NCBI GenBank assembly: GCA_017962105.1
Contig: JAGCVY010000068.1
Coordinates: 1 to 37,393, forward strand
Direction of reading: 5' to 3'
Source of the DNA: Lachnospiraceae bacterium
GTDB taxonomy: Bacteria > Bacillota > Clostridia > Lachnospirales > Lachnospiraceae
DNA length: 37,393 nt
Part shown: in pieces, positions 95-37,300 of the stretch
Position numbering within the stretch: the stretch's first letter is position 1
Layout of the letters: each line of letters opens with the position of its first letter
Translations under genes and position numbers: made by a program
The notes under the pieces: model-generated
What the model was told of the DNA's origin: nothing
What the model saw: the letters and a program-made list of their open reading frames with translations, nothing else
The model's database searches: none

Positions 95-180
95 AATTCC
101 CGCACCTCTCTCCTATTGTCATCACCACTATATAAAGTGCTGATGTAACATTTTCCCGCCTTGGATCATACAACATCTTG

Positions 181-209
181 ATTATATCAAAGCGTGTGCG
201 GAAATGCAA
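181..209 (-). promoter_or_regulatory. Possible promoter of the exported-protein gene
   Basis: On the minus strand TTGCAT (204-209) and a perfect TATAAT (181-186) are 17 bases apart, upstream of the gene starting at 94. The -10 box is consensus and the -35 box is poor (3 of 6). This is inference from the boxes only. Confidence 0.4.
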
Positions 210-226
210 TAACTTAAGGAAAACAA

Positions 227-1309
227 TTAAAATTCCGTCACATCCATCCGGCACATTCGCCTTCCCTTGAACCGAATCATCGGCAGGAGCACCGTCAGGT
301 TGGAGATGATCAGTCCGATGATCCCCATTTCCGAGAGATACGGCAGGAACTGGCCGCGGGGGATGTACAAAAGCTCATTCATTAGGAATGTGAACAGCTC
401 GATAACAGCGATGCCGCCGATGACGGCAATCAGGTCCATCACAATGAGCTCGGAGGCTATTTTCCGACGAATCCGCCCCTTTGAGATTCCGAGCGCACGA
501 TAGATACCGAACTCGTACTCGCGGCGGATGTACTGGCCCGTCACCACGGAGTTGAGGGTGACCGCGAGGATGACGGAGAGGATGATCATGCCTGCGTAGA
601 AAATCAGCTTGGCCGGCTCCATCTCCCGGTACACCATCTGGGCGTTCGGCTCGATGATCTGAACTTTGCGGTCGCCCCGCAGGTTCTTCAGATAGTCGAA
701 CAGTTCCTGCCCCGACATCGATTCGCTTAGGATGTTTGCGCGGTATAAAATGCCGTCCGTCGGCTCCTCCTCGTACAGGTAGAACACGACGTAACTGCCG
801 TCATCGATCAGCCCGTTCAGGGTGAACCGCTTGTCCTTCGAAACATCGCCGAGCTTCATTCCCGCGTTGTCCGCGAGGCTTTTGCTCATCACCATGTCCA
901 TGTCTTTAAGGCCGCTGCAGTCAAACCGGATCCCGAGATGATCGAAGGCGCGCTGCATATCCGCCGCCGAGTTGAACACGAAATTACCGACATTGGTGTC
1001 AAATCCGATGGTCGTCTTCACCGACAGCCCGCTGAATCCACGACCGCTTCTGCCTAACACCGTCAGTTTGTCGTCGTTGCAGAGGTCCTCGTAGAAGCTT
1101 CGGTAATCGACATAATCGGTATCGGTCGTGATCGCCCCGACGACCACGATCTTGTCGCCGTACTCCTCCGCCTTCTCATAGAACCACCACAAGCTGCTCA
1201 AGTAATTGCCGGCAAGCATGATGCAGACCGTGAGGAACATCATCAGGATGATGATCGCCGACCGGCCCTTGTTGCCGCGGATATAATATAATGCGGAAAA
1301 TGGCTTCAT
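227..1309 (-). CDS. ABC transporter permease, FtsX/MacB type (second permease)
   Basis: This 360-residue membrane protein has one N-terminal transmembrane segment (about residues 18-42), a large extracytoplasmic region, and three C-terminal segments (about 235-345) containing the FtsX-like motif EFGIYRALGISKGRI. That layout is the MacB/FtsX permease fold, in which the ATPase drives mechanical movement of the external domain to export lipids, peptides or drugs. The ATG at 1309 follows an AAAGGAG site. It sits 33 bases after the ATPase gene and is the last gene of a permease-ATPase-permease operon. The two permeases differ in length and sequence, suggesting a heterodimer. The substrate cannot be told. 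No clear terminator hairpin was seen just after its stop. Confidence 0.85.
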   Translation of the reverse strand: MKPFSALYYIRGNKGRSAIIILMMFLTVCIMLAGNYLSSLWWFYEKAEEYGDKIVVVGAITTDTDYVDYRSFYEDLCNDDKLTVLGRSGRGFSGLSVKTTIGFDTNVGNFVFNSAADMQRAFDHLGIRFDCSGLKDMDMVMSKSLADNAGMKLGDVSKDKRFTLNGLIDDGSYVVFYLYEEEPTDGILYRANILSESMSGQELFDYLKNLRGDRKVQIIEPNAQMVYREMEPAKLIFYAGMIILSVILAVTLNSVVTGQYIRREYEFGIYRALGISKGRIRRKIASELIVMDLIAVIGGIAVIELFTFLMNELLYIPRGQFLPYLSEMGIIGLIISNLTVLLPMIRFKGRRMCRMDVTEF

Positions 1310-1342
1310 TGCCCCGCTCCTTTCCCTGCTCTTCTGCCCCCG

Positions 1343-2014
1343 TTACGCGCGGTCTTTTGTGACATTGCTCACCGTGCCGTCCCACATCTCCACCATCATA
1401 TCCACATCGGTGAGGATGGACCGGTCGTGGGTGACCACCAGGACAAGGCGGTCCTTCGAATACTCCTTGAGGATCCGCATGACATTGAACGCGTTTTCAT
1501 GGTCGAGGGACGCCGTCGGCTCGTCGGCAAATACGACCTTCGGATCGTTGATCATCGCCAGCGCGATGGCCACTCTCTGGCATTGGCCGCCCGAGAGCTT
1601 CGCCGGGCGCTTGCCGAACTCGCGCTCCTTAAGGCCCAGGGTCCGAAGCGCTTCCTTCGCCTTCTCCTCCGCGTTACTGCCGGCCGGAGCCGCAACGATG
1701 ACGTTGTCGAGGGCGCTCATATACGGGACCAGATAGTGCTTCTGGAACACGAATCCGAACTCCGTGCGGCGTAGTTTCTCCCGCGCGCGGTCCGGAATCT
1801 CCGTGATATCGGTACCGTTGTAGACAACACTGCCCTCCGTGGGCTTCTTGAGCGTGGAGATGCAGTACATCAACGTGCTCTTGCCGCTGCCGGAAGGCCC
1901 GATGATTCCCACAAGCCCTGTGTCCGGAAGCGTGAGGTCGAACCCCGCGAGAGCGTACATTTTCTCGTCCGTATCCATATCGTAAATCTTGCTGATATTC
2001 TTGATTTCAAACAT
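1343..2014 (-). CDS. ABC transporter ATP-binding protein, LolD/MacB type
   Basis: This 223-residue ATPase is complete. Walker A is GPSGSGKST (39-47), the Q-loop Gln is at 91, the signature is LSGGQ (140-144), Walker B is VVFADE (160-165) and the switch His is H196 in VVTHD. Length and motifs fit the LolD/FtsE/MacB group that pairs with FtsX-type permeases. The ATG at 2014 follows GAGGAGG, and the start codon itself overlaps one copy of the GGAAAATG octamer. It lies between two permease genes with gaps of 13 and 33 bases, so the three are almost certainly cotranscribed and form one exporter in the cytoplasmic membrane. Confidence 0.95.
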   Translation of the reverse strand: MFEIKNISKIYDMDTDEKMYALAGFDLTLPDTGLVGIIGPSGSGKSTLMYCISTLKKPTEGSVVYNGTDITEIPDRAREKLRRTEFGFVFQKHYLVPYMSALDNVIVAAPAGSNAEEKAKEALRTLGLKEREFGKRPAKLSGGQCQRVAIALAMINDPKVVFADEPTASLDHENAFNVMRILKEYSKDRLVLVVTHDRSILTDVDMMVEMWDGTVSNVTKDRA

Positions 2015-2027
2015 TTTCCGTTCCTCC

Positions 2028-3194
2028 TCAATCCTCGATCAGATCGATGGTCTTGATCTTGTATACCGACACGATCACGGGAATCTGCAGCACGCCGATG
2101 ATCATGACAAACGCCCCGAGAATCCGCAACAGCTGATCCTTCATAAACACTTTCGCGACAAGTCCCTTCGGCTCAATGACGATTCCCTCAAGCACTTTTA
2201 TACATCCCACGGAAAATGCCGCCCCCAGCAGGATTCCTGCAGTAAACATCAACATCATTTCCCGCATGATCATTCCGTAAATCTCACTCCGCGAGTAGCC
2301 GATGGATACGTAGAGGCAGTACTCGTTCACGCGGTTTCGCATAAACGAAACATAGGCGACGATCATGGAGATGCTTAAGAATATCATGGTCACCAGCATG
2401 ATGACCGCCACGGTCGCTTCGACGGAGTCGGCGACATCGTGCTCGTACAGGTCGCGGTTCGTCACGATATCATCGATGACATCCCCGTCCGCCTCGGATG
2501 GGGTCACACCGTACTTCGCTGCCAGCTTCGTGAAATCGCAGCTGTTTTCGTTACACAGCACCGTGATGAACCAACCGCTGTTGTAATATCCCCGGGGCGT
2601 TCCCACACAAGCCATTTCGTCCGAACGGATCGCTCCGACGATTTTAAACACTTCCCCGTAGGAATCCTTTTGAAACCAGTCGCCGACCTTCATTCCGCCG
2701 TTTCGCAGGATGCGCTCATCGATCAGGACCTCACCGTCATCCGCGGGCAGGCGTCCCTCCGTAAGCTTCGCGCCAACGTGCGCAAGCACCTCGGGAACCT
2801 GTTCCGGAGGAACCAGCGGAAAATTAAACCCGACTCCGCCGACCACTCCGACGTACCCCGCCATCAGCGTCTGGATGAAATATACCTTCTCCACATCCGG
2901 GTCGCTTTCCAGTCTCTTACAAAACTCATCCCTGGCCTGCGATCCGGCATTTTCATAGGACTCCTGATCCGGATAATCCGCCCGGTTCACGCCGAGACTT
3001 CCGTATGTCACGTTCGCGAGGGCGATGTGTTTCGGCAGCTCGAGAGTGATCGGTTTGACGCTTTCGACGGTTGCGCTCATGATGTAGGCGATCACATACA
3101 TCGCCATGAACGTCAGCGCCAGCGCCAGGATCAGCACAAAGCAGGTCCGCTTGTTGTTCTTTATGTATTTGGTTGCGGACAGACGATTTTTCAT
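2028..3194 (-). CDS. ABC transporter permease, FtsX/MacB type (first permease)
   Basis: This 388-residue protein has an N-terminal transmembrane segment (about 18-42), an extracytoplasmic domain of about 210 residues, then three C-terminal segments (about 255-380). The motif EYCLYVSIGYSRSEIYG matches the conserved cytoplasmic loop of FtsX-family permeases. The external domain contains the MacB-like element EGRLPADDGEVLIDE. The ATG at 3194 follows AAGGAGAG. It is the first large gene of the exporter operon. Such three-gene sets in Firmicutes often export antimicrobial peptides or lipids and are often regulated by a neighbouring repressor or two-component system; here an array of palindromes lies 200-390 bases upstream. 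Confidence 0.87.
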   Translation of the reverse strand: MKNRLSATKYIKNNKRTCFVLILALALTFMAMYVIAYIMSATVESVKPITLELPKHIALANVTYGSLGVNRADYPDQESYENAGSQARDEFCKRLESDPDVEKVYFIQTLMAGYVGVVGGVGFNFPLVPPEQVPEVLAHVGAKLTEGRLPADDGEVLIDERILRNGGMKVGDWFQKDSYGEVFKIVGAIRSDEMACVGTPRGYYNSGWFITVLCNENSCDFTKLAAKYGVTPSEADGDVIDDIVTNRDLYEHDVADSVEATVAVIMLVTMIFLSISMIVAYVSFMRNRVNEYCLYVSIGYSRSEIYGMIMREMMLMFTAGILLGAAFSVGCIKVLEGIVIEPKGLVAKVFMKDQLLRILGAFVMIIGVLQIPVIVSVYKIKTIDLIED

Positions 3195-3232
3195 TAATCT
3201 CTCCTTATTGTATGCTGTTCTACTCCTGTAGA

Positions 3233-3328
3233 CTATCGTTTGTTTTCTTTACAGAATGTTAGTGTTTTCTCATTGGAGATGCGCTTTGGAGATTTGCTGC
3301 GCATCGATACTTCGGGCCGCTTCGCCAT
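3233..3328 (-). pseudogene. 31-codon ORF, possibly the remnant of a TetR-type regulator
   Basis: A short reading frame starts MAKRPEVSMRSK and ends after 31 codons, 38 bases before the exporter operon. Its ATG at 3328 has a good GGAAGG ribosome site, and the frame is also open upstream to another ATG at 3382. The first dozen residues resemble the usual opening of clostridial TetR/AcrR regulators (MAKKPEVT...), but no helix-turn-helix follows. A palindromic site array lies just upstream, as expected for a lost or shortened local repressor. The homology is inferred from a very short stretch; it may instead be a small leader peptide or not a gene at all. Confidence 0.25.
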
Positions 3329-3406
3329 GACAGCCTTCCGGCTCAACGATTGCACGGCTCTCCCCTCGTACGGACTCATCATAACGTACTGCGCAGGCAA
3401 AGAAAA

Positions 3407-3485: not shown

Positions 3486-3492
3486 TTTGGGA

Positions 3493-3775: not shown

Positions 3776-3794
3776 TATCACCAAAATATTGACC

Positions 3795-4817: not shown

Positions 4818-5356
4818 AAGCTGCCTCCTCTCATCATTTTCCGCAACCGGTCAAGCGCCTTCCGATACTTTCGATATACCGCCGGCAACGACATGTCCAT
4901 GATCTTCGCGATCTCCTCAAAGGTCAGATCACCGTTGACATGCAGCGTCACAATATCCCGTTCCTCCGGTTTGAGATGCTCGATTGCCTCTGCGATCATC
5001 ATCTCATTTTCCCACGCGAAGTTGTCCGGGCGGTCATTTTCATCGGTCCCCTGCACGTCCTCCTGCAGCTCCTCGTGGGACCGTTTCCGCGTCATCATCA
5101 GCGCCTCGTTTCGCACAGTCTGCAGCAGGTACGCGCGGCCGTTTTCAATATCATCCGTGCGCTCTCTCCGAAGCAGTTTCATAAACGCTTCCTGCACCGC
5201 ATCCTCCGCATCCGCACGGTTGTGCAGGATCCGGCACGCTACGGTGTACATCGGGCGGCTCATCTCTGCATACAACGCGGCAAATGCCTCCCGACTCTGT
5301 TTCATCTCATGTAACCATTGAGTGAGCTGATTCTTATCTGCCGGCATCGATTTCAC
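4814..5356 (-). CDS. RNA polymerase sigma factor, ECF (sigma-70 family)
   Basis: This 180-residue protein has the two domains of an ECF sigma factor. Region 2 is about residues 25-90, with ILHNRADAEDAVQEAFMKL matching the core-binding and -10 helices. Region 4 is about 125-178, with LTFEEIAKIMDMSLPAVYRKYRKALDRLR forming the -35 recognition helix-turn-helix. The ATG at 5356 follows GAGGAGG; a second ATG lies three codons on. It overlaps the downstream membrane protein by four bases, so its activity is probably controlled by that partner in response to an envelope signal. No autoregulatory promoter could be recognised confidently. Confidence 0.93.
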   Translation of the reverse strand: MKSMPADKNQLTQWLHEMKQSREAFAALYAEMSRPMYTVACRILHNRADAEDAVQEAFMKLLRRERTDDIENGRAYLLQTVRNEALMMTRKRSHEELQEDVQGTDENDRPDNFAWENEMMIAEAIEHLKPEERDIVTLHVNGDLTFEEIAKIMDMSLPAVYRKYRKALDRLRKMMRGGSL

Positions 5357-5438
5357 CTCCTCACTGACTATGATGCGCGAAAATGATGATTTTTTCGGTC
5401 ATTTCACATTTTCCGGAATATTCTTCGGAAAATCTACG

Positions 5439-7117: not shown

Positions 7118-7186
7118 CTATCTCATACAATCTTCACTTTGCTTCTGCCGTCAGTCGGACATTTTCCGTACGAAGGGAATCGCCTC

Positions 7187-7915
7187 TCAGTCCTCGTACA
7201 CGCCGTTCCAGTAATTCTCGCCCATCAGAGCCCCGGTCCGCGCATTCACGCGGATCGTGGTGAATTCGTTGATCGTGAACTCATAGTACACATTCCCTTC
7301 CGTGTCGGTCTTCAACAGGTAGGTGCCGTAGATTGCCTCTTTCTTCCGAAGCCGGAAAATCTGTTCCTCATGCTCCTTCGCAAGGTTGTACACCTTCTCA
7401 AAGAACTCCGACGCCGGCTTGAGACCGTCCGTGCTGACATAGCTCTGATCCGGTATCAGACTCAGCAGGCCGTACTTGTGGCTGCACCAGGCGACATTGC
7501 CGTTTTCTTCACGGCCGGTGTTGAGCGAGTACTCCTGCTCGATGACGCCATCCTTCATGCGGTAGCCGTAAAGCCGGAAATGTTCGTTGTAAAACTCATA
7601 GTTAAACCCGGAGACATACACATCGACATCCAGACCAGCGTCTGCTTTCTCCATCTCCGCAAGTGCGATTTTCCGATCCTCTTCCTTCCTGGTCTGAAGG
7701 GCATACATCGATTTTGCATAGTAGGTATGGTTTCCGACCTTCACCAGCTCGACTTCGGAAAATGCGGTCTCCGGCGTGGTATATGCCGGAGCGCTGCTCT
7801 CATACCCGCTCTCCGTTCCCACATTCTCCTTGATAAAATCGTATCCGCCGCCAAGAGCCGACAGCAATCCATATGCAAATGTTCCGAGTGCGGCGACTAA
7901 TATTTTCCAAATCAT
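7187..7915 (-). CDS. Uncharacterised signal-anchored protein, PepSY-like C-terminus
   Basis: This 242-residue protein was not assigned to a named family. It begins with a short hydrophobic segment (about 2-22, ILVAALGTFAYGLLSALGG) that should act as a membrane anchor, followed by an extracytoplasmic domain rich in Tyr and acidic residues. The end (about 205-242), with TYLLKTDTEGNVYYEFTINE followed by IRVNARTGALMG, resembles the strand-strand ending of PepSY-type domains, where a Val-Asn-Ala-x-Thr-Gly turn is typical. The gene starts 75 bases after the stop of the YczE/YitT-family gene and may be cotranscribed with it. Its role is unknown. Confidence 0.75.
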   Translation of the reverse strand: MIWKILVAALGTFAYGLLSALGGGYDFIKENVGTESGYESSAPAYTTPETAFSEVELVKVGNHTYYAKSMYALQTRKEEDRKIALAEMEKADAGLDVDVYVSGFNYEFYNEHFRLYGYRMKDGVIEQEYSLNTGREENGNVAWCSHKYGLLSLIPDQSYVSTDGLKPASEFFEKVYNLAKEHEEQIFRLRKKEAIYGTYLLKTDTEGNVYYEFTINEFTTIRVNARTGALMGENYWNGVYED

Positions 7916-8632: not shown

Positions 8633-8705
8633 CCGTCTCTTCCTTTCCCAACAGCGGAGCATAACAGACTCCTATTGCGCACTTGAACAATGTACTCTTA
8701 TCAAG

Positions 8706-8729
8706 CGGAAAATGCAACTGCATTTTCCG
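8706..8729. repeat. Perfect inverted pair of the GGAAAATG octamer
   Basis: CGGAAAATGCA (8706-8716) and TGCATTTTCCG (8719-8729) form an 11-bp perfect dyad separated by two bases. Both arms contain the octamer that is over-represented in the window. It lies in the gap between the YczE/YitT-family gene and the terminator of the surface-protein gene. Confidence 0.7.
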
Positions 8730-8767
8730 TATTGGAAACGAAACCACAAAAGAGAATTCTTTCCGAC

Positions 8768-8837: not shown

Positions 8838-11800
8838 TTACTCCTCTTCCTCACGTCTTCTTCTGACGATCATCATAACGAAGATGGTCAGTGTAGCGAA
8901 TGCGAGAAGCAGAATCCAAACAACGTTCTGAGCAGTATCAGCTGTCTTCGGAGTAATTTCGGTATTGTCGTCCTTCTTAATCTCTTCCTTCTTAGGAGTT
9001 TCGGGCTCGACTTTCTTCTCCGGCTCTACCTCTTTCTCAGGCTCTACAACCTTCTCAGGCTCGACTTCCTTCTCAGGTTCAACAACCTTCTCAGGCTCAG
9101 CAGGCTGTTTCTCAGGCTCCTTCTCAGGCTCCTTCTCAGGCTCCTTCTCGGGCTCTTTCTCAGGCTCCTTCTCGGGCTCTTTCTCAGGCTCCTTCTCGGG
9201 CTCTTTCTCAGGCTCCTTCTCAGGCTCCTTCTCGGGCTCCTTCTCGGGCTCCTTCTCAGGTTCCTTCTCAGGCTCTTCAGCTGCGATCTCAAATGCTGCA
9301 GCTACAGAGTGATCCTTGAATACAACCTTTACCTCATGCTCGCCTGCAGGCAGAGTCTTCAGATAATCATCATGAAGGGTAAGCTCCAGGCAGCCTTCTA
9401 CTGCATCGTAATTGTCCGCAGAAATCTTTTCTCCGTCAATCTCAACCCACTTAAGAAGGCTAAGGGTTTTCTCGTCCTTCAGATCACGTTTGAATTTCCA
9501 AGCCTTGTTGGCAGTGATAACTGTTACTTCGTACTTGGAATCGCTTACGAGAATTGTAAACTCATAAGGCTTAGCCTCTACGCCATCTTCCGAATACGTA
9601 ATCGTAAGTGTCTGAGCGCCGGTCTTCAGGTCGTCATATCCGGAAACCATCTCTTCCGTTACCGGAATGGTCTTGACAATCTCACTCTTCATGGTGCAGA
9701 TGATCTCAGCTCCGGTGAGATCCAGCTCATCGCAAATGACGTAGTCTTTCTTAAGATTATCCGCAAGTTTGATCTCGAGATTGACGATTTCGTCAACCAG
9801 CTTGTCCTCAAAATAATGCTTGGACTCATGGCTCTCATCATTCTTGCAGAGATAGTAGTACTCACCTTCTTCGGTGTACGAAGCCACATGAACGTAATGC
9901 TTCTCTGTAGTATCCCAATCGTGATTCTTCTGAGGAATGCTACTCGTTCTCGATTCAAGGACCTTACCGCAATCATCAGCAGTACACTTGATGACAAACG
10001 TCTCGGAACCTGCTTCCTCGCACTTCGGTTCTACACGCTTGGAAAGATCTTCCTCTTCCTCACCCGGAACATGTTCAGCCTTAAGAGGAATGAATGCAAA
10101 TAACGCTCCGTCCATAGCACCATAAGTAATGTCCTTAGCGTCAACAGCAACGTCACCGTATTTTGCGTTAACAACAAAATCAGCAAGTACAAAATTGCCG
10201 TCATCGAAGTTATCGGAATCTCCATAGGCAATCAATATCAGCGAGTACGTCTTGTCACCATCGACTGTGAAATTCAGAATATCAAAATCACCCTTATACG
10301 AAGCAATGACAAAATCTTCAAACGCGATATCAGCCGGAAGCAGGAATGCCGTATAGCCAAAATCCTCACCCGTCTTTACGGAAAGGAAACCCTCAATATC
10401 ACCAAGCATCGGGTTTTTAATGGCAACTGCTGCAGGAGTCTTATCCTCACTCTGTACAGGAGAGTTCTTTGCAGCAATTACAGCGTTACCCTTAAGGCTC
10501 TCAAACTTTGTTCCGCAAAGCAGCGTCGCGATATCAACATCCGCCTCACATGTTTTCTCGATCGCCGTGATCTCAAAAATCTGAGTTGCGGTATTTTCGT
10601 CAACAGTATAGTTCTTGCTTGCGCTTACAGCCTTAGCGGTGTACTTGCCGGCGTCTCTTGCCACCTGTACCCCGACAAGGGAGATGGAAAGAACACAAGA
10701 AGTACCTTCTACAAGATCATCCTCATCAGCTGCCGCCTCCGGAAGATGAGCCTTGCCGTCGAACGGGAAGGATACCTCATCGTCCCAAACAACCTTTACT
10801 TTCTTCGGAGTGATAGCAAACTGCTTTGTTGTCGTGCCGTCCTCACTGTCAGCCAGCACGTAATCCTTTGTGTTGCTGATCGTAGCCGTTGCGGTGTAAA
10901 GACCGGCATCTTTTGCCTCGCTCTTAACCGTAACAGATACGGTGCAGTCGTTATTGACAACGAAACCGGAAGGAATCGTAGCGGTAGGCACATGTGCCTT
11001 GCCGTCAAACTCAAAGCTCAAATTGCTCCAGTCAAGGGAGATTTCTTTCGGGTTAACGGTCACCGTAACGGTCTTGGTCTTTGCCGCGTAATTGCCGTCC
11101 TCGCTAGCTGCAACGTTTACGGTAATCGTAGCAATTCCGGCGCCGACGATTGTAACATTTCCATCGTTGTCTACCGTCACGACATCCGTAGCATCACTTA
11201 CAAAGCTAACCTCTCCGGACGCGTTAGAGTAATCAATTGAGAAATTCGCATTGCCGTACGTTCTTTCATACGAATCTTCAAGGGTGATAAATCCTTCGCC
11301 TTTATTTACAGTAATTTTGAACGAAGTTGAAATTTTTACGCCTTCTTTTGTTGTGTATTCTACGTTAACCGTTTTCGTTCCGGCTGTCTTAGTGATATCG
11401 TCGACATTGGTGGTAATCATGTCTTTCGTCACATCAACATCTTCCGTCTTGACAGCTTCGCCGCCTTCAATATGAGAATACTCAATCGTAAGCTTAAGGT
11501 CTTTCAGAGTGAACTCATCGTTCAATTCATAGGTATCCTTATAACCGTCTGCAATTTTCCCGGTAATGATGAACCATCCGGAATAAATCGTTTTATTTTC
11601 ATGAATCTGTTGACTGAAATCAAATGTATCTTTAAGCTCAATGGTTGTATACCAATCATCAAAAATGTGGTTATCATGGTATTGGCACTTCGGAATACCT
11701 TCCGGTCTGGAAATTACCGTTCCGTCCTTAACCGTAATCGAGTACTCCTTAAAGCCGTGGCGGCCCTTCCTATCGTGGGGATCACCATATTCTCTGGCAA

Positions 11801-13772
11801 CAAACGTGACCGTGTAATAAACGTCTTTCTTGCTCCACTTGGCTATAAGTGTGATGTCCGATTTGATTACAGTATCAAAAGTGAACTTCGTTCCGTCTTC
11901 GTACTGCCACTCCACAAAATCATACTGCGAATCCGTCGGCTTATACTCAGCAACCTTGAAATTCGAACCTACGGTAACTGTCTTGGTCTGAGGTGTACCG
12001 CCGTGACCATTCAGGTTGAAGGTCACCGTCGGATACGTCGCCGTCTTGGCCGTCAGGGTAATCGGACCCGTAACAGGGGCGTCGAAATCATAAAGATCGT
12101 TACCGAGATACCAGCCTACAAAGTACTCGTCATTTTTCTTAGCCTTAATGCCATCGGGCTCTTTAGCCTTCAGGTCCTTCTCTACACTCTGGGAAGAAAC
12201 CGTCTTGTTAATGAGGTCATTTCCGTCAAATGTTACAGTGTATTCCTCGACCCACTTCGAGTAAATGTTTGTCTCTTTTGTAATAGTAGTGTGCTTGAAA
12301 TCGAACTCATTCACGCAGGCAGCTTCCTTATACCAGCCAAGGAACTTGTGCGTCGTTCCGGGCTCCAGAGACTCAGTGCAGGAAGGTTTCGGAATATCCT
12401 TATCGGCAATCTTCGTTCCGATCGTAACATCGAAGCTTCTGATAATGCCCTCATTGGTATAACCGTGAACCGCGTTTCCGTCTTTATCAAGAGCGAGGAA
12501 CGTTACGGTAGCCTTGCTCGTCGCCCAGCTTGCATAAAGAACAGTGTCCGAAGTAATCTTCGTGTTTTTGAAGTCAAACGCCTTTCCGTCTTTATCCAGC
12601 CAGCCCTGGAAAGTGTAGCTATCGTCCGTCGGAGCGGGTGTCGGCTCTGTTGCATATTTTCCGTACTCAACGCTCTGTGCCGGAACCGGCTGCTTGCCGT
12701 GACCGTTCATCTCGAAGGTAACATTAAACTTCACGGCCTCGCGCTTTACATACAGATCCAGAGGTGTCGTTACCGCTTGAGTTGTATCAAAATCAGTATA
12801 AGAATACTGATTGCCGATGCCCCAAGCCCAGATCGAAGTACGGGTCTGCCACGTCGTAACCATGCCTTCCTGATCGTAACTATCCGGAATGACATCCTTG
12901 ACCAATGTGCCATAGCGTACGTCCGAGATGGTTTCGGACTTCTCACCATCGTGAAGCGTAACTCTTACGGTGTAGACAACTTCTACTTCATTCGTCGTCG
13001 CTTCGCAAATGGTATTACCGTCTTTGTCTTTGAGGATAACGTTACATTTGAATTTCGCACCCTCGCGGGCTACGACTCGTCCACTATCCGGTTTTCCATC
13101 TGTCTGTATATTTATAGTGTACGTGATATCATTCCATCTTCCGTTCTTGTAAGATACGGAAGCATCCACTGTATTATCAGTGGTGAGCGGAGAGTCAATG
13201 TATTCCGTCGCTCCTTTTCTCAGCTCCTGCAAGTTGAACTCGAAATACATGTCTTTTTCATATTTCACATTTTCAACGCCTACAACTAAGCTGAATTTAG
13301 GATCGAATCCGCTCTCGCCATTCGAGTTATAAAACGGATAATTAACCGGCTGCGTCTTAATAGTGATCGAAGGAGTTTTTACTTCTTCATAAACGACATA
13401 AAGTGCAGTGTCGATGTTTATCTTGGTATTGTTATTTAACTCGGTGTATGTATAGTTGTAAGAGTAATTATACTTCTGACGTGTATACACCTTCGAAACC
13501 TTATCAGTCTTTCCTTCCTCTTTCTTCAGAGGAATTTCAATCTGACTCAAGGTCGTGCCCTTGGATACCTGAATCGCCTCACCTACTTTAACGGCGTTCT
13601 GGGTATTATCGTACTGTGGTCTTTCATAGAAAGAGATCGTAACCTTTTGCGGATCCGGCGCAGCTTCTGCCGTCTTCGCGCTCTTCATCCCAACGAGTCC
13701 TGCAATCATAACAACGCAGAGAAGCATTGCCATGATGCGTACGAATCGTGAGAACTTGCTAAAACTTTTCAT
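8838..13772 (-). CDS. Large cell-wall-anchored surface protein with InlB-type, MBG and Ig-like repeats
   Basis: This 1644-residue protein starts at the ATG at 13772, which follows GGAGGG and opens a signal peptide (about 1-38, ending KTAEA|AP). About 350-740 holds some five InlB/Listeria-Bacteroides repeats with FNLNGHGGTP- and FQGWLDKDG-type motifs. Ig-like modules follow, then two MBG-type modules with FDGKAH (about 925 and 1005), further Ig-like and X2-like modules, a repeat stalk of about 14 EPEK units (about 1499-1555) and EPEKxVEPEK units. The end has TPKTAD, a membrane segment (about 1617-1637) and RRRREEEE, a sortase signal with Thr for Leu and Ala for Gly relative to LPxTG. It should be linked to peptidoglycan and may bind host glycans, proteins or fibre. 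Base use is more AT-rich than in neighbours, and the GGAAAATG octamer is absent from the whole gene. Confidence 0.9.
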   Translation of the reverse strand: MKSFSKFSRFVRIMAMLLCVVMIAGLVGMKSAKTAEAAPDPQKVTISFYERPQYDNTQNAVKVGEAIQVSKGTTLSQIEIPLKKEEGKTDKVSKVYTRQKYNYSYNYTYTELNNNTKINIDTALYVVYEEVKTPSITIKTQPVNYPFYNSNGESGFDPKFSLVVGVENVKYEKDMYFEFNLQELRKGATEYIDSPLTTDNTVDASVSYKNGRWNDITYTINIQTDGKPDSGRVVAREGAKFKCNVILKDKDGNTICEATTNEVEVVYTVRVTLHDGEKSETISDVRYGTLVKDVIPDSYDQEGMVTTWQTRTSIWAWGIGNQYSYTDFDTTQAVTTPLDLYVKREAVKFNVTFEMNGHGKQPVPAQSVEYGKYATEPTPAPTDDSYTFQGWLDKDGKAFDFKNTKITSDTVLYASWATSKATVTFLALDKDGNAVHGYTNEGIIRSFDVTIGTKIADKDIPKPSCTESLEPGTTHKFLGWYKEAACVNEFDFKHTTITKETNIYSKWVEEYTVTFDGNDLINKTVSSQSVEKDLKAKEPDGIKAKKNDEYFVGWYLGNDLYDFDAPVTGPITLTAKTATYPTVTFNLNGHGGTPQTKTVTVGSNFKVAEYKPTDSQYDFVEWQYEDGTKFTFDTVIKSDITLIAKWSKKDVYYTVTFVAREYGDPHDRKGRHGFKEYSITVKDGTVISRPEGIPKCQYHDNHIFDDWYTTIELKDTFDFSQQIHENKTIYSGWFIITGKIADGYKDTYELNDEFTLKDLKLTIEYSHIEGGEAVKTEDVDVTKDMITTNVDDITKTAGTKTVNVEYTTKEGVKISTSFKITVNKGEGFITLEDSYERTYGNANFSIDYSNASGEVSFVSDATDVVTVDNDGNVTIVGAGIATITVNVAASEDGNYAAKTKTVTVTVNPKEISLDWSNLSFEFDGKAHVPTATIPSGFVVNNDCTVSVTVKSEAKDAGLYTATATISNTKDYVLADSEDGTTTKQFAITPKKVKVVWDDEVSFPFDGKAHLPEAAADEDDLVEGTSCVLSISLVGVQVARDAGKYTAKAVSASKNYTVDENTATQIFEITAIEKTCEADVDIATLLCGTKFESLKGNAVIAAKNSPVQSEDKTPAAVAIKNPMLGDIEGFLSVKTGEDFGYTAFLLPADIAFEDFVIASYKGDFDILNFTVDGDKTYSLILIAYGDSDNFDDGNFVLADFVVNAKYGDVAVDAKDITYGAMDGALFAFIPLKAEHVPGEEEEDLSKRVEPKCEEAGSETFVIKCTADDCGKVLESRTSSIPQKNHDWDTTEKHYVHVASYTEEGEYYYLCKNDESHESKHYFEDKLVDEIVNLEIKLADNLKKDYVICDELDLTGAEIICTMKSEIVKTIPVTEEMVSGYDDLKTGAQTLTITYSEDGVEAKPYEFTILVSDSKYEVTVITANKAWKFKRDLKDEKTLSLLKWVEIDGEKISADNYDAVEGCLELTLHDDYLKTLPAGEHEVKVVFKDHSVAAAFEIAAEEPEKEPEKEPEKEPEKEPEKEPEKEPEKEPEKEPEKEPEKEPEKEPEKEPEKEPEKQPAEPEKVVEPEKEVEPEKVVEPEKEVEPEKKVEPETPKKEEIKKDDNTEITPKTADTAQNVVWILLLAFATLTIFVMMIVRRRREEEE
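9108..9275 (-). repeat. 12-bp tandem repeats encoding (EPEK)n
   Basis: About 14 copies of a 12-base unit (plus-strand form TTCTCAGGCTCC, with CTCGGG and GGCTCT variants) encode the charged Pro-rich stalk. The mixture of two codon variants in runs suggests expansion by unequal recombination or slippage, so copy number may vary between strains. The reverse strand reads as Ser/Phe/Gly repeats and is not a gene. Confidence 0.9.
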
Positions 13773-13846
13773 ACATCCCTCCATAATTCTCGTGGTGCAA
13801 CTTCCTCGGAATTGCCCACGGTGCGTTATTAACATCAAACACCGCC

Positions 13847-13910: not shown

Positions 13911-13996
13911 TTTTGCGGGTTTTTCCCTCCTTTTTCCTCTGTTTCGAGGTTCAATATACAAAAAGCCAGCGTATATTCATCGGAAAATGCATAATA

Positions 13997-23767: not shown

Positions 23768-23858
23768 TCATTTTCCCTTGCATGGAGCATCATCTCACGC
23801 AAACACTGCCACAGTTTTCCTTTTATGGCAACACTTACCTGCGCGAACCCGTCACGCC

Positions 23859-26440: not shown

Positions 26441-28195
26441 ATGTCAATCACCGAAGTTACCCAAATTGTCACAAAAGAAGCTTTTGGTATCTGGTTCCTG
26501 ATCGGAGCCGCACTCGTCTTCTTCATGCAGGCCGGATTCGCCATGGTAGAGACCGGTTTCACCCGTGCGAAAAATGCCGGCAACATCATCATGAAGAACC
26601 TGATGGACTTCTGTATCGGTACCGTAGTGTTCGTTCTGCTCGGCTTCTCTCTCATGATGGCTGAGGATTACGTAGCCGGATTCATCGGCGTCCCGAATCT
26701 TAAGATCTTCACGGATTTCGGCGGATTCCTGCAGGACGGGATGGCTCCTTCCTTCGTATTCAACCTTGTGTTCTGTGCAACCGCAGCCACCATCGTGTCG
26801 GGCTCCATGGCAGAGCGCACCAAGTTTATCTCCTACTGTATCTACTCCGGCGTTATTTCGCTGTTTGTATATCCGATTGAAGCCGGCTGGGTTTGGAACT
26901 CTCAGGGCTGGCTGGCGAAGCTTGGGTTCCACGATTTCGCAGGTTCTGCTGCGATCCACTCCGTCGGCGGTATCACCGCTTTGATCGGTGCAATCCTCGT
27001 CGGTCCCCGTCTTGGCAAGTACGTCAAGGACAAGAACGGCAAAGTTACGAAAGTTAACGCTATCCCCGGCCATGCGATCACGTTGGGCGCTCTCGGCTGC
27101 TTCATCCTGTGGTTCGGCTGGTACGGTTTCAACGGCGCCGCTGCATGGGACGGCAACTCGCTTGCTTCCATCTTCGTCACCACGACGATCGCTCCGGCGG
27201 TTGCAACCTGCACGACCCTTCTGTACACCTGGATCAAGAACGGCAAGCCCGATGTTTCGATGTGCTTGAACGCCTGCCTGGCCGGCCTTGTGGGTATCAC
27301 CGCAGGCTGTGATGCACTCGATGCTCTCGGCGCAACCGTCGTCGGTATCGTTTCCGGTATCCTGGTAGTCGTTGCTGTAGAAGTACTTGATCTGAAGTGC
27401 CATGTCGACGATCCCGTCGGTGCTGTCGGTGTTCATTTTGCGAACGGCGTCTGGGGCACCCTCGCTGTAGGTCTGTTGGCAAACCCGAAGGCTCCGGCCG
27501 GATTAGACGGTTTGTTCTACACTGGTAGTATCAAGTTGTTTGGAATTCAGGCGCTTGGTATCGGTGCCATCCTTGCATGGACCGCACTGTGCATGGCCAT
27601 CACCTTCCTGATCATCAAAAAGACCATCGGTCTCCGCGTTTCGGCGGAGGAAGAGATCCGCGGTCTGGACAGCACCGAGCACGGCCTTCCGAGTGCTTAC
27701 GCCGATTTCGCTCCTGCTGTTACCGATCTGAGCTACAGCTTCCCTGAGGCAGCAGAGGCTGTTGCGGTATCCGGTGACACCCCGGTTGCCGAGGCTGTTC
27801 CGGTCAAGAAAGTTGCCGCTGTTGTGGACGACGGTACGCCGAAGTTCACCAAGATCGAGATTGTCTGCCGCGAGTCCCGCTTTGAGACCTTGAAGACCGC
27901 GATGATGGATATCGGTATCACCGGTATGACCGTCTCCCACGTTCTGGGATGCGGCGTGCAGAAAGGCAAGCCGGAGTTCTACCGTGGCGTTCCCGTGGAA
28001 GCTACCCTGCTTCCGAAGATCCAGGTCGACATCGTCGTCGTTGCCGTACCTGTCCGCAAGGTCATCGAGACCGCAAAGAAAGTTCTTTACACCGGCCATA
28101 TCGGCGATGGCAAGATTTTCGTTTACGATGTGGAAAATGTTATTAAGGTCCGCACGGGCGAGGAAGGCTACGATGCTCTGCAGGATGTAGAGTAA
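26441..28195 (+). CDS. amt: Ammonium transporter fused to a PII signalling protein
   Basis: This 584-residue protein has an Amt channel (about 1-400, eleven membrane segments) with conserved stretches such as AGFAMVETGFTRAKNAGNII, FVFNLVFCATAATIVSGSMA, AIHSVGGITALIGA and VHFANGVWGTLAVGLL. A linker rich in Ala and Val (about 415-475) leads to a PII/GlnK domain (about 475-584) with the T-loop GKPEFYRGVPVEATLLPK and GHIGDGKIFVYDVENVIKVRTGE. PII proteins normally bind Amt as separate subunits and block it when nitrogen is plentiful; here the sensor is tethered. The Tyr in the T-loop (EFYRG) is kept. The ATG at 26441 follows a perfect AAAGGAGG. It lies between glnN and asnB. Confidence 0.95.
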   Translation: MSITEVTQIVTKEAFGIWFLIGAALVFFMQAGFAMVETGFTRAKNAGNIIMKNLMDFCIGTVVFVLLGFSLMMAEDYVAGFIGVPNLKIFTDFGGFLQDGMAPSFVFNLVFCATAATIVSGSMAERTKFISYCIYSGVISLFVYPIEAGWVWNSQGWLAKLGFHDFAGSAAIHSVGGITALIGAILVGPRLGKYVKDKNGKVTKVNAIPGHAITLGALGCFILWFGWYGFNGAAAWDGNSLASIFVTTTIAPAVATCTTLLYTWIKNGKPDVSMCLNACLAGLVGITAGCDALDALGATVVGIVSGILVVVAVEVLDLKCHVDDPVGAVGVHFANGVWGTLAVGLLANPKAPAGLDGLFYTGSIKLFGIQALGIGAILAWTALCMAITFLIIKKTIGLRVSAEEEIRGLDSTEHGLPSAYADFAPAVTDLSYSFPEAAEAVAVSGDTPVAEAVPVKKVAAVVDDGTPKFTKIEIVCRESRFETLKTAMMDIGITGMTVSHVLGCGVQKGKPEFYRGVPVEATLLPKIQVDIVVVAVPVRKVIETAKKVLYTGHIGDGKIFVYDVENVIKVRTGEEGYDALQDVE

Positions 28196-28309: not shown

Positions 28310-31607
<3,298 letters not shown>

Positions 31608-31663: not shown

Positions 31664-33094
31664 ATGGATACCATGTGGAATGATCAGAAACTTCATGAGG
31701 AATGCGGCGTCTTCGGCGTCTTTGCAAAGGACCCGGAGCCGGTGGCCGAGATGGCGTACTACGGGCTTTACGCCCTGCAGCACCGCGGTCAGGAGGGCTG
31801 CGGTATCGTCGTTAATGACGACGGTGTCTTCGTCTCGCACAAGGATACCGGTCTCGTCAGCGATGTTTTCCCGAAAGAGATCCTCTCCTCCTTCCCGGAC
31901 GCCACCATGGCGGTTGCCCACACGCGCTATGCCACAACCGGCGGTTCCGGCCGGAGCAACGTGCAGCCCATTGAGGTCAACCACCAGAAGGGGCGGATGG
32001 CCATCGCCCACAACGGAAACATCAGCAACGCCGCGGAACTGCGGTCCGCTCTCGAACTGACGGGAGCGATCTTCCATACCACCAGCGACACCGAGATCAT
32101 CGCCTATCTCGTGACCAAGGAGCGGCTGTTAAGCCCCTCCATCGAGGACGCGGTGAGCCGGGCGGTTGCTTCTCTTCAGGGAGCATTTTCCCTCATTGTC
32201 ATGTCCGCCCAGAAGCTCATCTGCATCCGGGATCCGCACGGATTCCGGCCGCTGTGCTACGGACAGACCCCTGACGGCACCTACGTGGTTGCCTCCGAGA
32301 CCTGTGCTTTGCATGCCGTCGGCGCGACGCCGATCCGGGATGTGGAGCCCGGGGAAATGCTCGTCTTCAGCCGTGACGGCGTGATCTCCCGCAGGGAGCA
32401 TTGCCAGACGACGCCGGTGCGGCACTGTATCTTTGAGTACATCTATTTTGCGAGACCGGACTCCGTGATCGACGGAGTTTCCGTGCACGCTGCGCGCGTC
32501 CGCGCAGGAGAGATTCTGGCGGACGCGCATCCTGCCCAAGCCGACATTGTCATCGGCGTTCCGGATTCGGGTCTGGACGCCGCCATCGGCTACGCCAGAG
32601 CCTCCGGAATCCCCTACGGGATCGGCCTCATCAAAAACAAATACATCGGACGCACCTTCATCAAGCCCTCCGGCCGGATGGACGCCGTGAAGATCAAGCT
32701 TGCCGCCGTGGAGGAGACCGTTCGGGACAAGCGGATCGTGCTGATCGACGACTCCATCGTACGCGGCACCACCTGCGCCCATATCGTGCGGATGCTCCGG
32801 GAAGCCGGGGCAAAGGAAATCCACATGCGGGTCACGGCACCGCCCTTCCTGCATCCCTGCTACTACGGCACCGACGTGGACTCCGAGGACAACCTGATCG
32901 CATGCCGGCATACCGTGGAGGAGATCGCGGAGATGATCGGCGTGGACACCCTCGGCTATCTGCCGGTGGACGAGCTTCCGGGGCTGTGTGGAAGCACGAA
33001 TATCTGCAGCGCCTGCTTCGACGGTTCCTACCCTACTCCGGTCCCGTCGGACACCAGAAAGGACCGGTTCGAGCAAAAGCTCTCGGAGCGATGA
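31664..33094 (+). CDS. purF: Amidophosphoribosyltransferase (first step of purine synthesis)
   Basis: This 476-residue enzyme transfers glutamine ammonia to PRPP to make phosphoribosylamine. The ATG at 31664 is preferred, with GAGG ten bases upstream; a TTG at 31649 and an ATG at 31673 are alternatives. The nucleophile is C14 in HEECGVFGVF, so a 13-residue propeptide is removed, as in the Bacillus-type enzyme. Other motifs are YALQHRGQEGCGI, AHNGNISNAAELR, the PRPP loop VLIDDSIVRGTT (near 359), and the Cys residues of the Fe-S cluster seen in RHCIFEY, LIACRHT and NICSACFDG. No other pur genes lie in the window, so its position follows glutamine use rather than the purine pathway. Confidence 0.96.
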   Translation: MDTMWNDQKLHEECGVFGVFAKDPEPVAEMAYYGLYALQHRGQEGCGIVVNDDGVFVSHKDTGLVSDVFPKEILSSFPDATMAVAHTRYATTGGSGRSNVQPIEVNHQKGRMAIAHNGNISNAAELRSALELTGAIFHTTSDTEIIAYLVTKERLLSPSIEDAVSRAVASLQGAFSLIVMSAQKLICIRDPHGFRPLCYGQTPDGTYVVASETCALHAVGATPIRDVEPGEMLVFSRDGVISRREHCQTTPVRHCIFEYIYFARPDSVIDGVSVHAARVRAGEILADAHPAQADIVIGVPDSGLDAAIGYARASGIPYGIGLIKNKYIGRTFIKPSGRMDAVKIKLAAVEETVRDKRIVLIDDSIVRGTTCAHIVRMLREAGAKEIHMRVTAPPFLHPCYYGTDVDSEDNLIACRHTVEEIAEMIGVDTLGYLPVDELPGLCGSTNICSACFDGSYPTPVPSDTRKDRFEQKLSER

Positions 33095-33179
33095 CATCCC
33101 GTGGAAAACCCAAGCGGGACCGCGGAGCCATTTTCCGTGAAAAAACTTTGAAAAAATACGGAATCACCGTGTTCGGCAG

Positions 33180-33216: not shown

Positions 33217-33277
33217 GCTGTAACATAAAAAAAATCATACTGCGGCCGTGAACGCCGCACTGCGAAAGGTCGAAACC

Positions 33278-34387
33278 ATGATACGCGAATTTGACCGGAA
33301 AATCATTACGGAAGACGGTACGGAGTACCTGGGCTACGGCTTCGGTGCCGACGGCGATGCGGTTTTGGAGCTTGTCTTCAACACCTCGATGGTCGGCTAC
33401 CAGGAGATCCTCTCCGACCCGTCCTACACCGACCAGGCGGTGGTCATGACATACCCCCTGATCGGCAACTACGGAATGGCTGCGGACGACTATGAGACCG
33501 GCACGCCCACCATCGGTGCGCTGATCGTCCGGGAGTACAACGACGAGCCCTCCAACTTCCGAAGCGAGGAGACCTTGGGAAGCGTTATGAAGCGCTTCGG
33601 GATTCCTGGAGTAAGCGGGGTGGACACGAGAAAACTCAACCGCTCCATCCGCGACTTAGGCTCCCGCAAAGTATTGATCACCACCCCGCAGACGACGCTT
33701 GCGGAAGGCCTTGCGATCATCCGTGACGCCGCTCTTCCGAACGACGCCGTGTCCCGCGTCTCCTGCCGAGAGATCACAACATATACCCCTTCGGAAAATG
33801 TCGGAGCGCTCCGCCGCGTCGTTCTCATCGACTGCGGAATGAAGCGGAACATTCTCCGCTCGCTCCTTGCCCGCGGCTGTGAGGTGACGGTGGTCCCGTG
33901 GAACACGGACGCCGCTGCTATCCTTGCCATAAAGCCGGACGGAGTGATGCTTAGTAACGGCCCCGGCGACCCCACCGATGTCCCGGAGACCATTGCGGCC
34001 GTGAAGGCGCTCATCGGAAAGCTTCCGATCTTCGGCATCTGCCTCGGGCATCAGATCCTCTCTCTTGCCTACGGCGCAAAGACATACAAACTGAAATTCG
34101 GCCACCGCGGAGGCAACCATCCCGTGATGGATCTCGCCACCGGCCGCATCGAGATCACCTCCCAGAACCACTCCTATGCGGTTTCGGAGGAAAGCCTTGC
34201 GGACACGCCGTTAGCGGTCACGCACAAAAACATCCTCGACAACACCATCGAGGGCGTCAGCTGCGAGAAGGACGCTGCGTTCAGCGTGCAGTACCACCCG
34301 GAGAGCTCGCCGGGACCGCAGGACAGCGCATACCTGTTCGACCGATTCATCCGTTTCATGGAGGCCAGCCATGCCGAAGAGAACTGA
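33278..34387 (+). CDS. carA: Carbamoyl-phosphate synthase small (glutaminase) subunit
   Basis: This 369-residue subunit releases ammonia from glutamine for the large subunit. The start at 33278 ([14 protein letters not shown]) has AAAGG upstream; a GTG at 33248 in frame is less likely. The N-terminal domain (about 1-150) contains [17 protein letters not shown] and [18 protein letters not shown]. The class I amidotransferase domain has [10 protein letters not shown], the elbow FGICLGHQI (Cys near 254), GHRGGNHPV and YHPESSPGP. It has its own promoter and a palindromic operator, and overlaps carB by 17 bases, which couples their translation. Confidence 0.97.
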
Positions 34388-37300
34388 CATCAAAAAAGTA
34401 CTGATCATCGGCTCCGGTCCGATCGTCATCGGGCAGGCCGCCGAGTTTGACTATGCGGGAACGCAGGCGTGCCTTGCCCTCAAGGAGGAGGGTTACGAGG
34501 TCATCCTCTGCAACTCTAACCCCGCAACCATCATGACCGACACGGCCATCGCCGACAAGGTCTACATGGAACCCCTGACTCTCGAGTTTATCGCCAAGAT
34601 CATCCGCTACGAGCGCCCCGACGCACTGCTTCCGGGCATCGGCGGACAGACCGGTCTTAACCTTGCGATGCAGCTGCAGAAGAAGGGCGTCCTCGCGGAA
34701 TGCCGCGTGGAACTGTTAGGAACCGACTCCTCTTCCATCGAGCGCGCGGAGGACCGTGAGCTCTTCAAGGAACTGTGCGAGGAACTCGGCGAGCCCGTGC
34801 TTCCCTCCGACATCGCCACCAACGAGGAGGACGGTATCCGCATCGCCGCGGAGATCGGCTACCCTGTGGTGCTTCGTCCGGCATTTACCCTCGGCGGAAC
34901 CGGCGGCGGTTTCGCGGACAACGAGGAGGAATTCATTCCGATGCTCCGGAACGCCCTCTCCCTCTCTCCGGTACGCCAGGTGCTGATTGAAAAGAGCATC
35001 AAGGGATTCAAGGAGATTGAGTACGAGGTTATCCGCGATAAGAATGACACCGCCATCACCGTCTGTAACATGGAAAACCTCGACCCCGTCGGTATCCACA
35101 CCGGCGACTCCATCGTCGTTTGCCCGTCCCAGACGCTGACCAACAAGGAATATCACATGCTTCGCGACAGCGCCCTGAAGATCATCCGCGCCCTCAAGAT
35201 TGAAGGCGGATGCAACGTTCAGTTCGCGCTCGATCCGAAGTCCTTCCAATACTACCTGATCGAGGTCAACCCCCGCGTGTCCCGGTCTTCCGCCCTGGCG
35301 TCCAAGGCCAGCGGTTACCCGATCGCCCGCGTCTCCGCGAAGATCGGCATCGGCATGACCCTCGACGAGATTGCCCTCGCAAACACCCCGGCATCCTTCG
35401 AGCCTGCACTCGACTACGTGGTCACGAAGATGCCCCGGTTCCCCTTCGACAAATTCGCCGACGCGGACAACTCCCTCTCCACCCAGATGAAGGCTACCGG
35501 CGAGGCCATGAGCATCGGCCGCACCTTCGAGGAGAGCCTCTTAAAGGGCATCCGTTCGCTGGAGATCGGCATGTACCACATTCATATGGCGAAGTTCGAC
35601 ACATTTTCCGACGACGAACTTCTCGCCTACATCCGCATCGGCACGGACGACCGCATCTACGCCATCGCGGAGCTTCTGCGCCGTGACGTAAGCATCGACA
35701 CCATCGCCGACGCCACCGCCATCGACCGGTTCTTCCTTCGGAAAATCCGCAACATCGTCGCAATGGAGCGTGAACTCGCCGCTTCCGTGGGCGATACCCG
35801 CGTGCTCTACGAGGCGAAGCGGATGGGATTTGCCGACCGTGCGATCGGAAACTTTTGGAATCTCACGGAGCGCGAGGTTGCCGACATCCGGAAGCGCGAG
35901 GGCATTCAGCCGGTGTACAAGATGATCGACACCTGCGCCTCGGAGTTTGACAGTTACGTGCCGTACTTCTACTCGACCTATGAGACGGAAAATGAGTCCG
36001 TCATCTCCGACCGGCGGAAGATCGTCGTGCTGGGCTCCGGCCCGATCCGTATCGGCCAGGGCGTCGAGTTCGACTACTCCACCGTGCACGCCGTGAAGAC
36101 CATCCGTGCAGCCGGCTACGAGGCCATTATCATCAACAACAATCCGGAGACGGTGTCCACCGATTACACCTGCTCCGACAAGCTGTATTTTGAGCCCCTC
36201 TGCACCGAGGACGTGATGAACATCATCCACCTTGAGAATCCGGAGGGCGTCATTGCAACCCTCGGCGGACAGACCGCCATCAACCTCGCGGACTCCCTTG
36301 CAGAGCGTGGCGTGAAGATCATCGGTACGGACTGCGCGGCCATCGACCGTGCGGAGGACCGCGACCAGTTTGAGCACCTGCTGCTCTCTCTGGGAATCCC
36401 GCAGCCGAAGGGTCAGGCCGTGACCAGCATCGAGGAAGGCGTTGCCGCTGCCGCTGCCATCGGCTATCCCGTTTTAGTCCGCCCGAGTTTCGTCTTAGGC
36501 GGCCGTGCGATGCAGATCGTCTCCAAGGAATCAGCGCTTCGCGAGTACCTGCACACCGCCGTGGAGATCGCGCCGGATAAGCCCGTTCTCGTGGACCGCT
36601 ACATCCGCGGTAAGGAGGTGGAGGTCGACGCCGTCTGCGACGGTAAGAAAGTGTTTGTTCCGGGCATTATGGAGCTTGTAGAGCGCACCGGCGTGCACTC
36701 CGGCGACTCCATGAGCGTATACCCGCCCTACACCCTCTCCGAGGGCGTGAAGAAGACGATCCTTCACTACACCGAGATGCTTGGTCTGGGCATCGTGATC
36801 GTCGGCCTGTTCAACCTCAAGTTCATTGTCGACCAGAATGAAAAAGTATACATTATCGAGGTTAACACGCGCTCTTCGAGAACGGTTCCGTTCCTCTCGA
36901 AAGCCACCGGATACAGTCTTGCGGACATCGGTACCAGAGCCATCCTGGGGCACTCCCTCGAGGAGCAGGGAATCAACTTCCTGTACCCGCCGGAGAAGAA
37001 GCGGTTCTACGTGAAGGTTCCGTCATTCTCCTTCTCGAAGCTCCGCGGAATGGACGCTTACCTCTCGCCCGAAATGAAGTCCACCGGCGAAGCGATCGGT
37101 TACGACGAGAAACTCCACCGCGCGGCGTACAAGGCGATGATCGCCTCCGGACTCACACTGAAAAACTACGGCACCGTCTTAGTCAGCGTCGCCGACGAGG
37201 ACAAGGACGAGGTTGTGCCACTCATCCGCCGTTTCTACGAGATGGGATTCAATATCGAGGCCACCTCCCTGACCGGCGAGGTGCTTCGCGAAAACGGTAT

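Follow-up and report, generated by a model that had tools for sequence, protein, structure and literature searches.

Why does a single octamer, GGAAAATG, recur 27 times within 37,393 nucleotides of a Lachnospiraceae genome? The stretch in question (contig JAGCVY010000068.1 of assembly GCA_017962105.1, hereafter the window) forms contig C25 in a draft genome of 2,587,466 bases and 105 contigs, which we call the own genome in the comparisons below. An earlier note, made from the letters of the window, had listed the 27 copies and had observed that 18 of them carry a preceding C, giving the nonamer CGGAAAATG (8 and 10 copies on the two strands); all were confirmed to the exact base, 18 octamers lying on the minus strand, so that the forward sequence reads CATTTTCC there, and nine on the plus strand. 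Judging from the sequence, we hold with moderate confidence that CGGAAAATG probably acts as a self-DNA uptake signal, comparable to the DNA uptake sequence (DUS) of Neisseriaceae and the uptake signal sequence (USS) of Pasteurellaceae. The genus concerned is an uncultured one from ruminants, belongs to Bacillota and carries the label Lachnospiraceae.

The strong over-representation claimed for the window holds under a Markov model: the order-2 expectation, strands summed, is 1.87 for the octamer and 0.8 for the nonamer, and each has the top z score within its own length class. When the codons of the window are shuffled, its called genes are expected to contain 2.7 copies (sd 1.2; maximum 6 in 30 shuffles) against 18 observed, and the gaps between genes contain eight against 0.6 expected. 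The earlier note had named a codon-aware null and the frequency of the word elsewhere in the genome as possible refuters, and its observation stands on both counts. Across 2.59 Mb the octamer occurs 789 + 789 = 1578 times and its reversed word 19 + 15 = 34 times, and the nonamer 537 + 523 = 1060 times against 5 + 3 = 8 for its reversed form; the word is not palindromic, differing from its own reverse complement. The codon null was run on 572 kb of the own genome with 456 genes called by a simple in-house program, by which the ComEC gene of L199 was broken up. In these genes there are 248 octamers, compared to 26.6 ± 4.5 after synonymous codon shuffling (maximum 36 in 50 shuffles) and 36.0 ± 5.1 under a stricter null that also keeps the bases flanking each codon (maximum 46 in 30 runs), a 6.9-fold excess. 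Between the genes of the same sample, 75 copies are found where 8.7 are expected, an 8.6-fold excess, and the density is 0.89 per kb in non-coding against 0.51 per kb in coding DNA. The in-gene copies, 134 sense and 114 antisense, occupy all three phases in either sense, with 100 of the 134 sense copies in phase 2. The suggestion that the DNA word is kept, and not the protein, is thus borne out; with a codon or protein origin rejected on the two synonymous nulls, the abundance of the word is a feature at the DNA level and no codon effect. Its spacing is near-Poisson, with a mean of 1.57 kb and a coefficient of variation (CV) of 0.96 (a further value is 0.94). Among the 43 of 61 named loci that exceed 9 kb, 12 carry at least seven copies and the others at most five.

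The enrichment is graded. At zero, one and two mismatches, the own genome has in-gene ratios of observed to expected copies, under the strict null, of 10.96, 2.42 and 1.06. In a second genome, G010, they are 9.7, 2.6 and 1.17, whereas the reversed word gives 0 (none against 2.5 expected), 0.92 and 0.98, and a permuted word 0.5 (one against 2.2 expected), 1.09 and 0.86. The two word-poor genomes G006 and G017 together give 1.8, 1.2 and 1.1. Within the nonamer, position 1 is weak, position 2 also accepts A, positions 3 and 9 are free, and position 4 also accepts C. Positions 5-8 (AAAT) allow almost no change, C being mildly tolerated at 5-7. Flanking information is weak outside about -4 to +8, and the word is therefore not a piece of a longer repeat.

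The abundance of the word has a history. The nearest named records of a 5'-nucleotidase-like protein are uncultured metagenome-assembled genomes at 90-95% identity, mostly from ruminants and labelled Lachnospiraceae or Lachnoclostridium, and among 22 genomes of the genus the nonamer count runs from 63 to 1060. A tree of ComEC proteins could be drawn for 20 of the 22 (G020 and G021, without a ComEC match, are outside it, and G015 and G016 are represented by fragments). Along this tree the density, computed with rounded genome sizes, rises from 28-33 per Mb in G006 and G017 through 45 in G015 and 114 in G011 to 96-162 in the six genomes of the B clade and 181-409 in the ten of the A clade. A related word, CGGCAAATG, changes in share as well: B-clade genomes, in which both are mixed, have a CGGAAAATG/CGGCAAATG ratio of 0.7-1.8, G007 has 1.1, and the remaining A-clade genomes have 2.7-8.7. 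Under the strict null both octamers are in 2.6- to 8.3-fold excess within genes of G001, G007 and G016, and neither goes beyond 1.6-fold in genes of G006 and G017; between genes of G017, GGAAAATG is found ten times against 3.0 expected. In 15 genomes of other genera of the family the word is 1.9-4.4 times as frequent as its reverse, and in the word-poor G006 2.7 times. Individual sites are also retained. In alignments of the own genome with G010 (high-scoring segment pairs above 300 bp and below 97% identity; alignments at 77% identity; expectation from local GC-matched words), 13 of 30 own nonamers are kept where 0.17 would be expected (p 0.0007), and reciprocally 13 of 28 nonamers of G010 against 0.13. 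A set of 12 named loci gave seven of 14 sites kept against 0.13, but is not an independent set, because L001 in it appears, judging from equal counts, to belong to G010 itself.

The arrangement of the copies on the two strands can be followed in the window, where they lie as listed here.

149-156, minus strand: octamer GGAAAATG, intergenic or edge
1295-1302, plus strand: word preceded by C (CGGAAAATG), antisense in gene 227-1309
2012-2019, minus strand: word preceded by C, overlapping the ATG of gene 1343-2014
2211-2218, plus strand: word preceded by C, antisense in gene 2028-3194
4835-4842, minus strand: word preceded by C, sense, phase 1
5005-5012, minus strand: octamer GGAAAATG, sense, phase 2
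5407-5414, minus strand: word preceded by C, intergenic or edge
7160-7167, minus strand: word preceded by C, intergenic or edge
7757-7764, plus strand: word preceded by C, antisense
8706-8729: inverted pair of GGAAAATG at 8707-8714 (plus) and CATTTTCC at 8721-8728 (minus), both preceded by C; 10-bp hairpin
13982-13989, plus strand: word preceded by C, intergenic or edge
14372-14379, minus strand: octamer GGAAAATG, sense in gene 14085-15425
14843-14850, minus strand: octamer GGAAAATG, sense in gene 14085-15425
17494-17501, minus strand: word preceded by C, sense in gene 17036-18250
18232-18239, minus strand: word preceded by C, sense in gene 17036-18250
18518-18525, minus strand: octamer GGAAAATG, sense, phase 1
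19107-19114, minus strand: octamer GGAAAATG, sense, phase 2
23769-23776, minus strand: octamer GGAAAATG, intergenic or edge
28132-28139, plus strand: octamer GGAAAATG, sense in gene 26441-28195
29613-29620, minus strand: word preceded by C, antisense
30866-30873, plus strand: word preceded by C, sense in gene 30003-31607
32184-32191, minus strand: octamer GGAAAATG, antisense
33129-33136, minus strand: word preceded by C, intergenic or edge
33793-33800, plus strand: word preceded by C, sense in gene 33248-34387
35602-35609, minus strand: word preceded by C, antisense in gene 34371-37391
35987-35994, plus strand: word preceded by C, sense in gene 34371-37391

Another over-represented word of the window, AGCCTGAGAA, with 11 copies between 9034 and 9265, is explained by the codons of a protein of 1666 aa that contains an (EPEK)n linker and is encoded at 8838-13838 on the minus strand.

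The twofold orientation bias described earlier is real as a count in the window (18:9), where it is not significant (binomial p 0.12), and it does not extend to the 572-kb sample, as the balance of sense and antisense copies there indicates. With the GC skew of the draft contigs as a proxy for replication direction, two contigs of G010 totalling 431 kb of constant skew sign carry 132 copies in leading-strand orientation and 123 in the opposite one. Counting all contigs of at least 8 kb with an absolute skew above 0.03, which covers 330 of 345 own copies and 303 of 315 in G010, the ratio is 186:144 and 162:141, respectively, or 348:285 (55%) pooled. On C1, the longer G010 contig, 53% of copies (89/167) are in leading-strand orientation, where base composition alone predicts 74%. 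What does stand out is the arrangement of close neighbours: among pairs less than 60 bp apart in the own genome and G010, 27 are inverted against 11.2 expected (p 4e-5), and three are direct against the same 11.2. The inverted pair of the window forms a stable hairpin in an RNA fold of 8695-8745 on the minus strand (-15.5 kcal/mol, z -3.6).

In abundance, behaviour under the nulls, orientation, pairs and mismatch gradient, the distribution matches that of uptake sequences, for which one account names as traits the lack of palindromy, about 10% inverted repeats, a non-coding excess, no orientation bias and over-represented mismatched forms (in part of PMC1939737). The Neisseriaceae have eight DUS dialects that track phylogeny, one genome carrying two at once (in the passages of PMC3630211 on dialects). 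Like the DUS so described, the present word is short and present in many copies, forms inverted pairs, and may have related words that follow phylogeny, two of them mixed in B-clade genomes; it differs in its unrelated sequence, its Bacillota host and its lower copy number, and in that no ComP was identified. Known uptake signals are tied to terminators, as stated in part of PMC1852404, a tie not seen for the inverted pairs here. Convergent gaps contain four copies in 5.2 kb (small numbers) and tandem gaps 57 in 53.9 kb; because convergent gaps are not enriched, subject to those small numbers, and the hairpin of the window has no U-tract, a terminator role is without support. With the USS, whose spacing is given as about 1 kb (a passage of PMC7811141), the word shares a similar spacing, a presence both in and between genes, little or no orientation bias and over-represented mismatched forms; it differs in sequence and lacks a marked flanking motif outside about -4 to +8. 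The groups named with uptake sequences, in the relevant passages of PMC7811141 and PMC1939737, are Pasteurellaceae and Neisseriaceae, and the uptake receptor of the former is itself predicted only (one passage of PMC12616744). Type IV pilins of C. difficile bind DNA, with no competence reported in the corresponding part of PMC9556784. In the open-access literature we found no report of an uptake sequence in Lachnospiraceae, Firmicutes or rumen bacteria, or of CGGAAAATG itself. Veillonella, like the present genus, is a member of Bacillota. For the naturally competent Veillonella parvula, a DUS was thought by the authors to be an unlikely cause of a DNA-source bias (discussed in a passage of PMC5397411).

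ComEC and type IV pilus genes, counted as competence machinery, are present. ComEC matches occur in 20 of the 22 genus genomes, and the own ComEC has 772 aa with Competence and metallo-beta-lactamase domains; in G015 (C63) and G016 (C57) the match is split in two frames, for which decay or assembly error is possible. Contig C92 of the own genome carries pilB-pilT-pilC-two tandem pilins-pilD-pilM, plus further prepilin-type proteins. Pilins of the own genome lie at L197 13208-13720, 13861-14298 and 17895-18554 and at L198 2677-3219, with one more starting at L198 3231. G011 has two PilB loci in one bin (C126 and C175), which a mixed assembly or two pilus systems may explain. An orphan PilT-family ATPase lies away from the pilus operon (L067, 6113-7171, minus strand; 437 bits to TIGR01420); a ComGA reading of this third T2SSE ATPase proved wrong, the protein being of the PilT family. 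It occurs in 19 of the 22 genomes, at 94-100% identity in 11 of the A clade, 74-75% in seven of the B clade and 60% in G011 (G020 and G021 being placed in clades by this protein alone), and was not found in the three word-poorest, G006, G015 and G017, where the operon PilT, at 50%, comes closest. Pilin heads differ between clades. One minor pilin with N_methyl as its sole Pfam match gave a structure model (mean pLDDT 79) whose best counterparts in PDB are FimU chains (E 5.7e-3, TM 0.46/0.59), none reaching 0.001. Part of PMC12616744 discusses FimT and PpdA as minor pilins that bind DNA, and PpdA was co-folded with DNA there. FimT and PpdA belong with FimU. The FimU-like pilin is a candidate receptor only.

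From these observations of the word, its distribution, its history and the genes, we infer uptake, a preference for the word, a receptor, and drive as the cause of accumulation, in a scenario as follows. DNA that bears the word would be favoured by a receptor at the cell surface, probably one of the minor type IV pilus subunits; the pilus would be retracted by PilT, perhaps together with the orphan second PilT; ComEC would pass one strand in, and recombination would install it. Because word-bearing DNA would enter more often, chance near-matches might become fixed as full words, and the word would by this fixation accumulate in either orientation, at any site where the protein can accommodate it.

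Several observations weigh against an uptake signal. The word-poor G006 and G017 also carry ComEC and PilB/PilT, and having the machinery is thus not enough to predict the word. The coincidence of the orphan PilT with the word is confounded by phylogeny: it amounts to one or two events on a tree and may reflect shared ancestry; G015, one of the three genomes in which it was not found, is just 80% complete. ComP_DUS of Pfam, considered as receptor and then dropped, is sub-threshold in two of ten pilins and has no match in the other eight. Two further genomes that favour other words, G061 and G062, gave no PilB or PilT, just TadA-like ATPases (best TIGR03819, below cut-off), while ComEC frames are present in both. 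The hairpin at 8706-8729, the one pair folded, lacks a U-tract, and the inverted pairs show no visible tie to gene ends. The pooled orientation count of the own genome and G010 has a nominal 55:45 leading-strand excess (p 0.014). None of 14 own sites is kept in G006, G017 and the B-clade genomes G001, G004, G008 and G016 pooled, which by itself is uninformative because just about one (0.07) would be expected. No report of uptake or competence in the present clade was found in the open-access literature, and no PF03432 relaxase, as a marker of mobile elements, in ten genomes. Finally, L139 868-16907, a ribosomal-protein/SecY/RpoA operon, has word-free stretches of 7.0 and 8.3 kb, plausibly because its genes are highly constrained.

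Word-free stretches were also considered as mobile islands, a reading that was rejected. Of four checked (L139, L140, L079 and L113 of G010), the one in L139 is the ribosomal-protein operon, where a PHROG scan of ten proteins gave matches for three only, an ABC-type protein having many. The proteins selected from the other three loci comprise ordinary enzymes together with AddB, a signalling protein and one GmrSD-like protein.

Other explanations have to be weighed against this proposal, among which an orientation-independent DNA-protein site inside the cell, serving nucleoid organisation, condensin loading or repair under chromosomal selection, is the one we take most seriously, though we consider it unlikely. 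The protein-like tolerance pattern, the near-Poisson spacing with both CVs close to one, the conservation of positions at orthologous sites, and the lack of detected PilB/PilT in G061 and G062, which have words of their own, would all suit such a site; it requires, however, selection at more than 1000 scattered sites, and the gradient, the mixed words of the B clade and the inverted pairs are all features already known from uptake sequences. A bias of codon context or mutation without function has, in our view, a small chance of being correct: the dominance of phase 2 among sense copies speaks for it, as does the G061 word, dominated by one phase, but the use of all six phases, the intergenic enrichment, the excess over the junction-preserving null, the absence of enrichment in reversed and permuted words and the orthologous retention do not fit.

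The word might instead be the recognition site of a DNA methylase or of a defence system, its copies protected and their excess tolerated; the specificity of the word and its change from clade to clade would suit this. Such sites are usually depleted, not raised, and a non-palindromic word with free positions inside and an enrichment graded with mismatches is not what this explanation leads one to expect; moreover, a methylation or binding site, as the earlier note had suggested, would not by itself account for over-representation, and we regard this as improbable. Least probable of all, to our mind, is a site of the Chi type, read by AddAB. The own genome does encode AddB and a helicase-nuclease resembling AddA (L079, 5590-12878), and a single over-represented word of eight or nine bases stands out as Chi does, but the word lacks strong co-orientation with replication, its leading-strand share is below the prediction from base composition, inverted pairs are favoured, and genes of G006 and G017 show no more than the slight enrichment given above (the presence of AddAB being known for the own genome only). 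The FtsK-orienting polar sequences (KOPS) and SpoIIIE recognition sequences (SRS) are likewise chromosome-wide octamers; they are strongly polar towards the terminus, and the present word is not. Chi and KOPS were accordingly rejected on polarity (132:123 and 348:285). The highly iterated palindrome HIP1 of cyanobacteria, a palindromic octamer, shares with the word its high iteration and was rejected on symmetry. Of the roles that the earlier note had offered, then, the DNA-uptake word survives, and the Chi-like word and the segregation or polarity signal find no support in the orientation counts.

Further words come into sight as well. In G061, GGCAATGA has 1062 copies genome-wide against 36 of its reverse (loci L009, L194-L196 and L215-L217), with 24 of 37 in-gene copies in one antisense phase and a single copy in 8.4 kb of intergenic DNA, where 0.3 are expected; it may be another uptake word or may reflect a strong habit of codon context. 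G062 favours AAAATGAA, with 33 copies against 6.6 in genes and nine against 2.3 between them in a 101-kb sample. Because GGCAATGA is so largely confined to one phase, with that one intergenic copy, we treat the words of both genomes as leads and not as established dialects. No dominant related word was seen in G052, nor, save GGCAAATG in G001, in 12 genomes sampled at about 20 kb each. G006 and G017 have other, weaker enriched words; in G006 (L087-L091), AAGCAAA (69 against 23 in genes) and words like GCAAAAGC are over-represented. Repeated words such as CAATGGATG, TTCATAGGA, GTGGTACTA and GGAACTAAA are almost confined to gaps (G006 L087-L091, G017 L092-L096, G004 L159, G001 L158) and are probably dispersed or array repeats.

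An uptake signal would be surprising for this bacterial group. We raise, tentatively and at somewhat less than even confidence, the possibility that signals for the uptake of self-DNA arose independently a third time, here in monoderm Bacillota of the rumen, with their build-up and dialect change readable as a gradient within one living genus and with an orphan PilT detected in genomes rich in the word and not in those poor in it. If the proposal is true, transformation would be a regular process in rumen Bacillota, and species there would mark their own DNA; the origin and change of such signals would then be open to study in one genus, across 28 to 409 copies per Mb.

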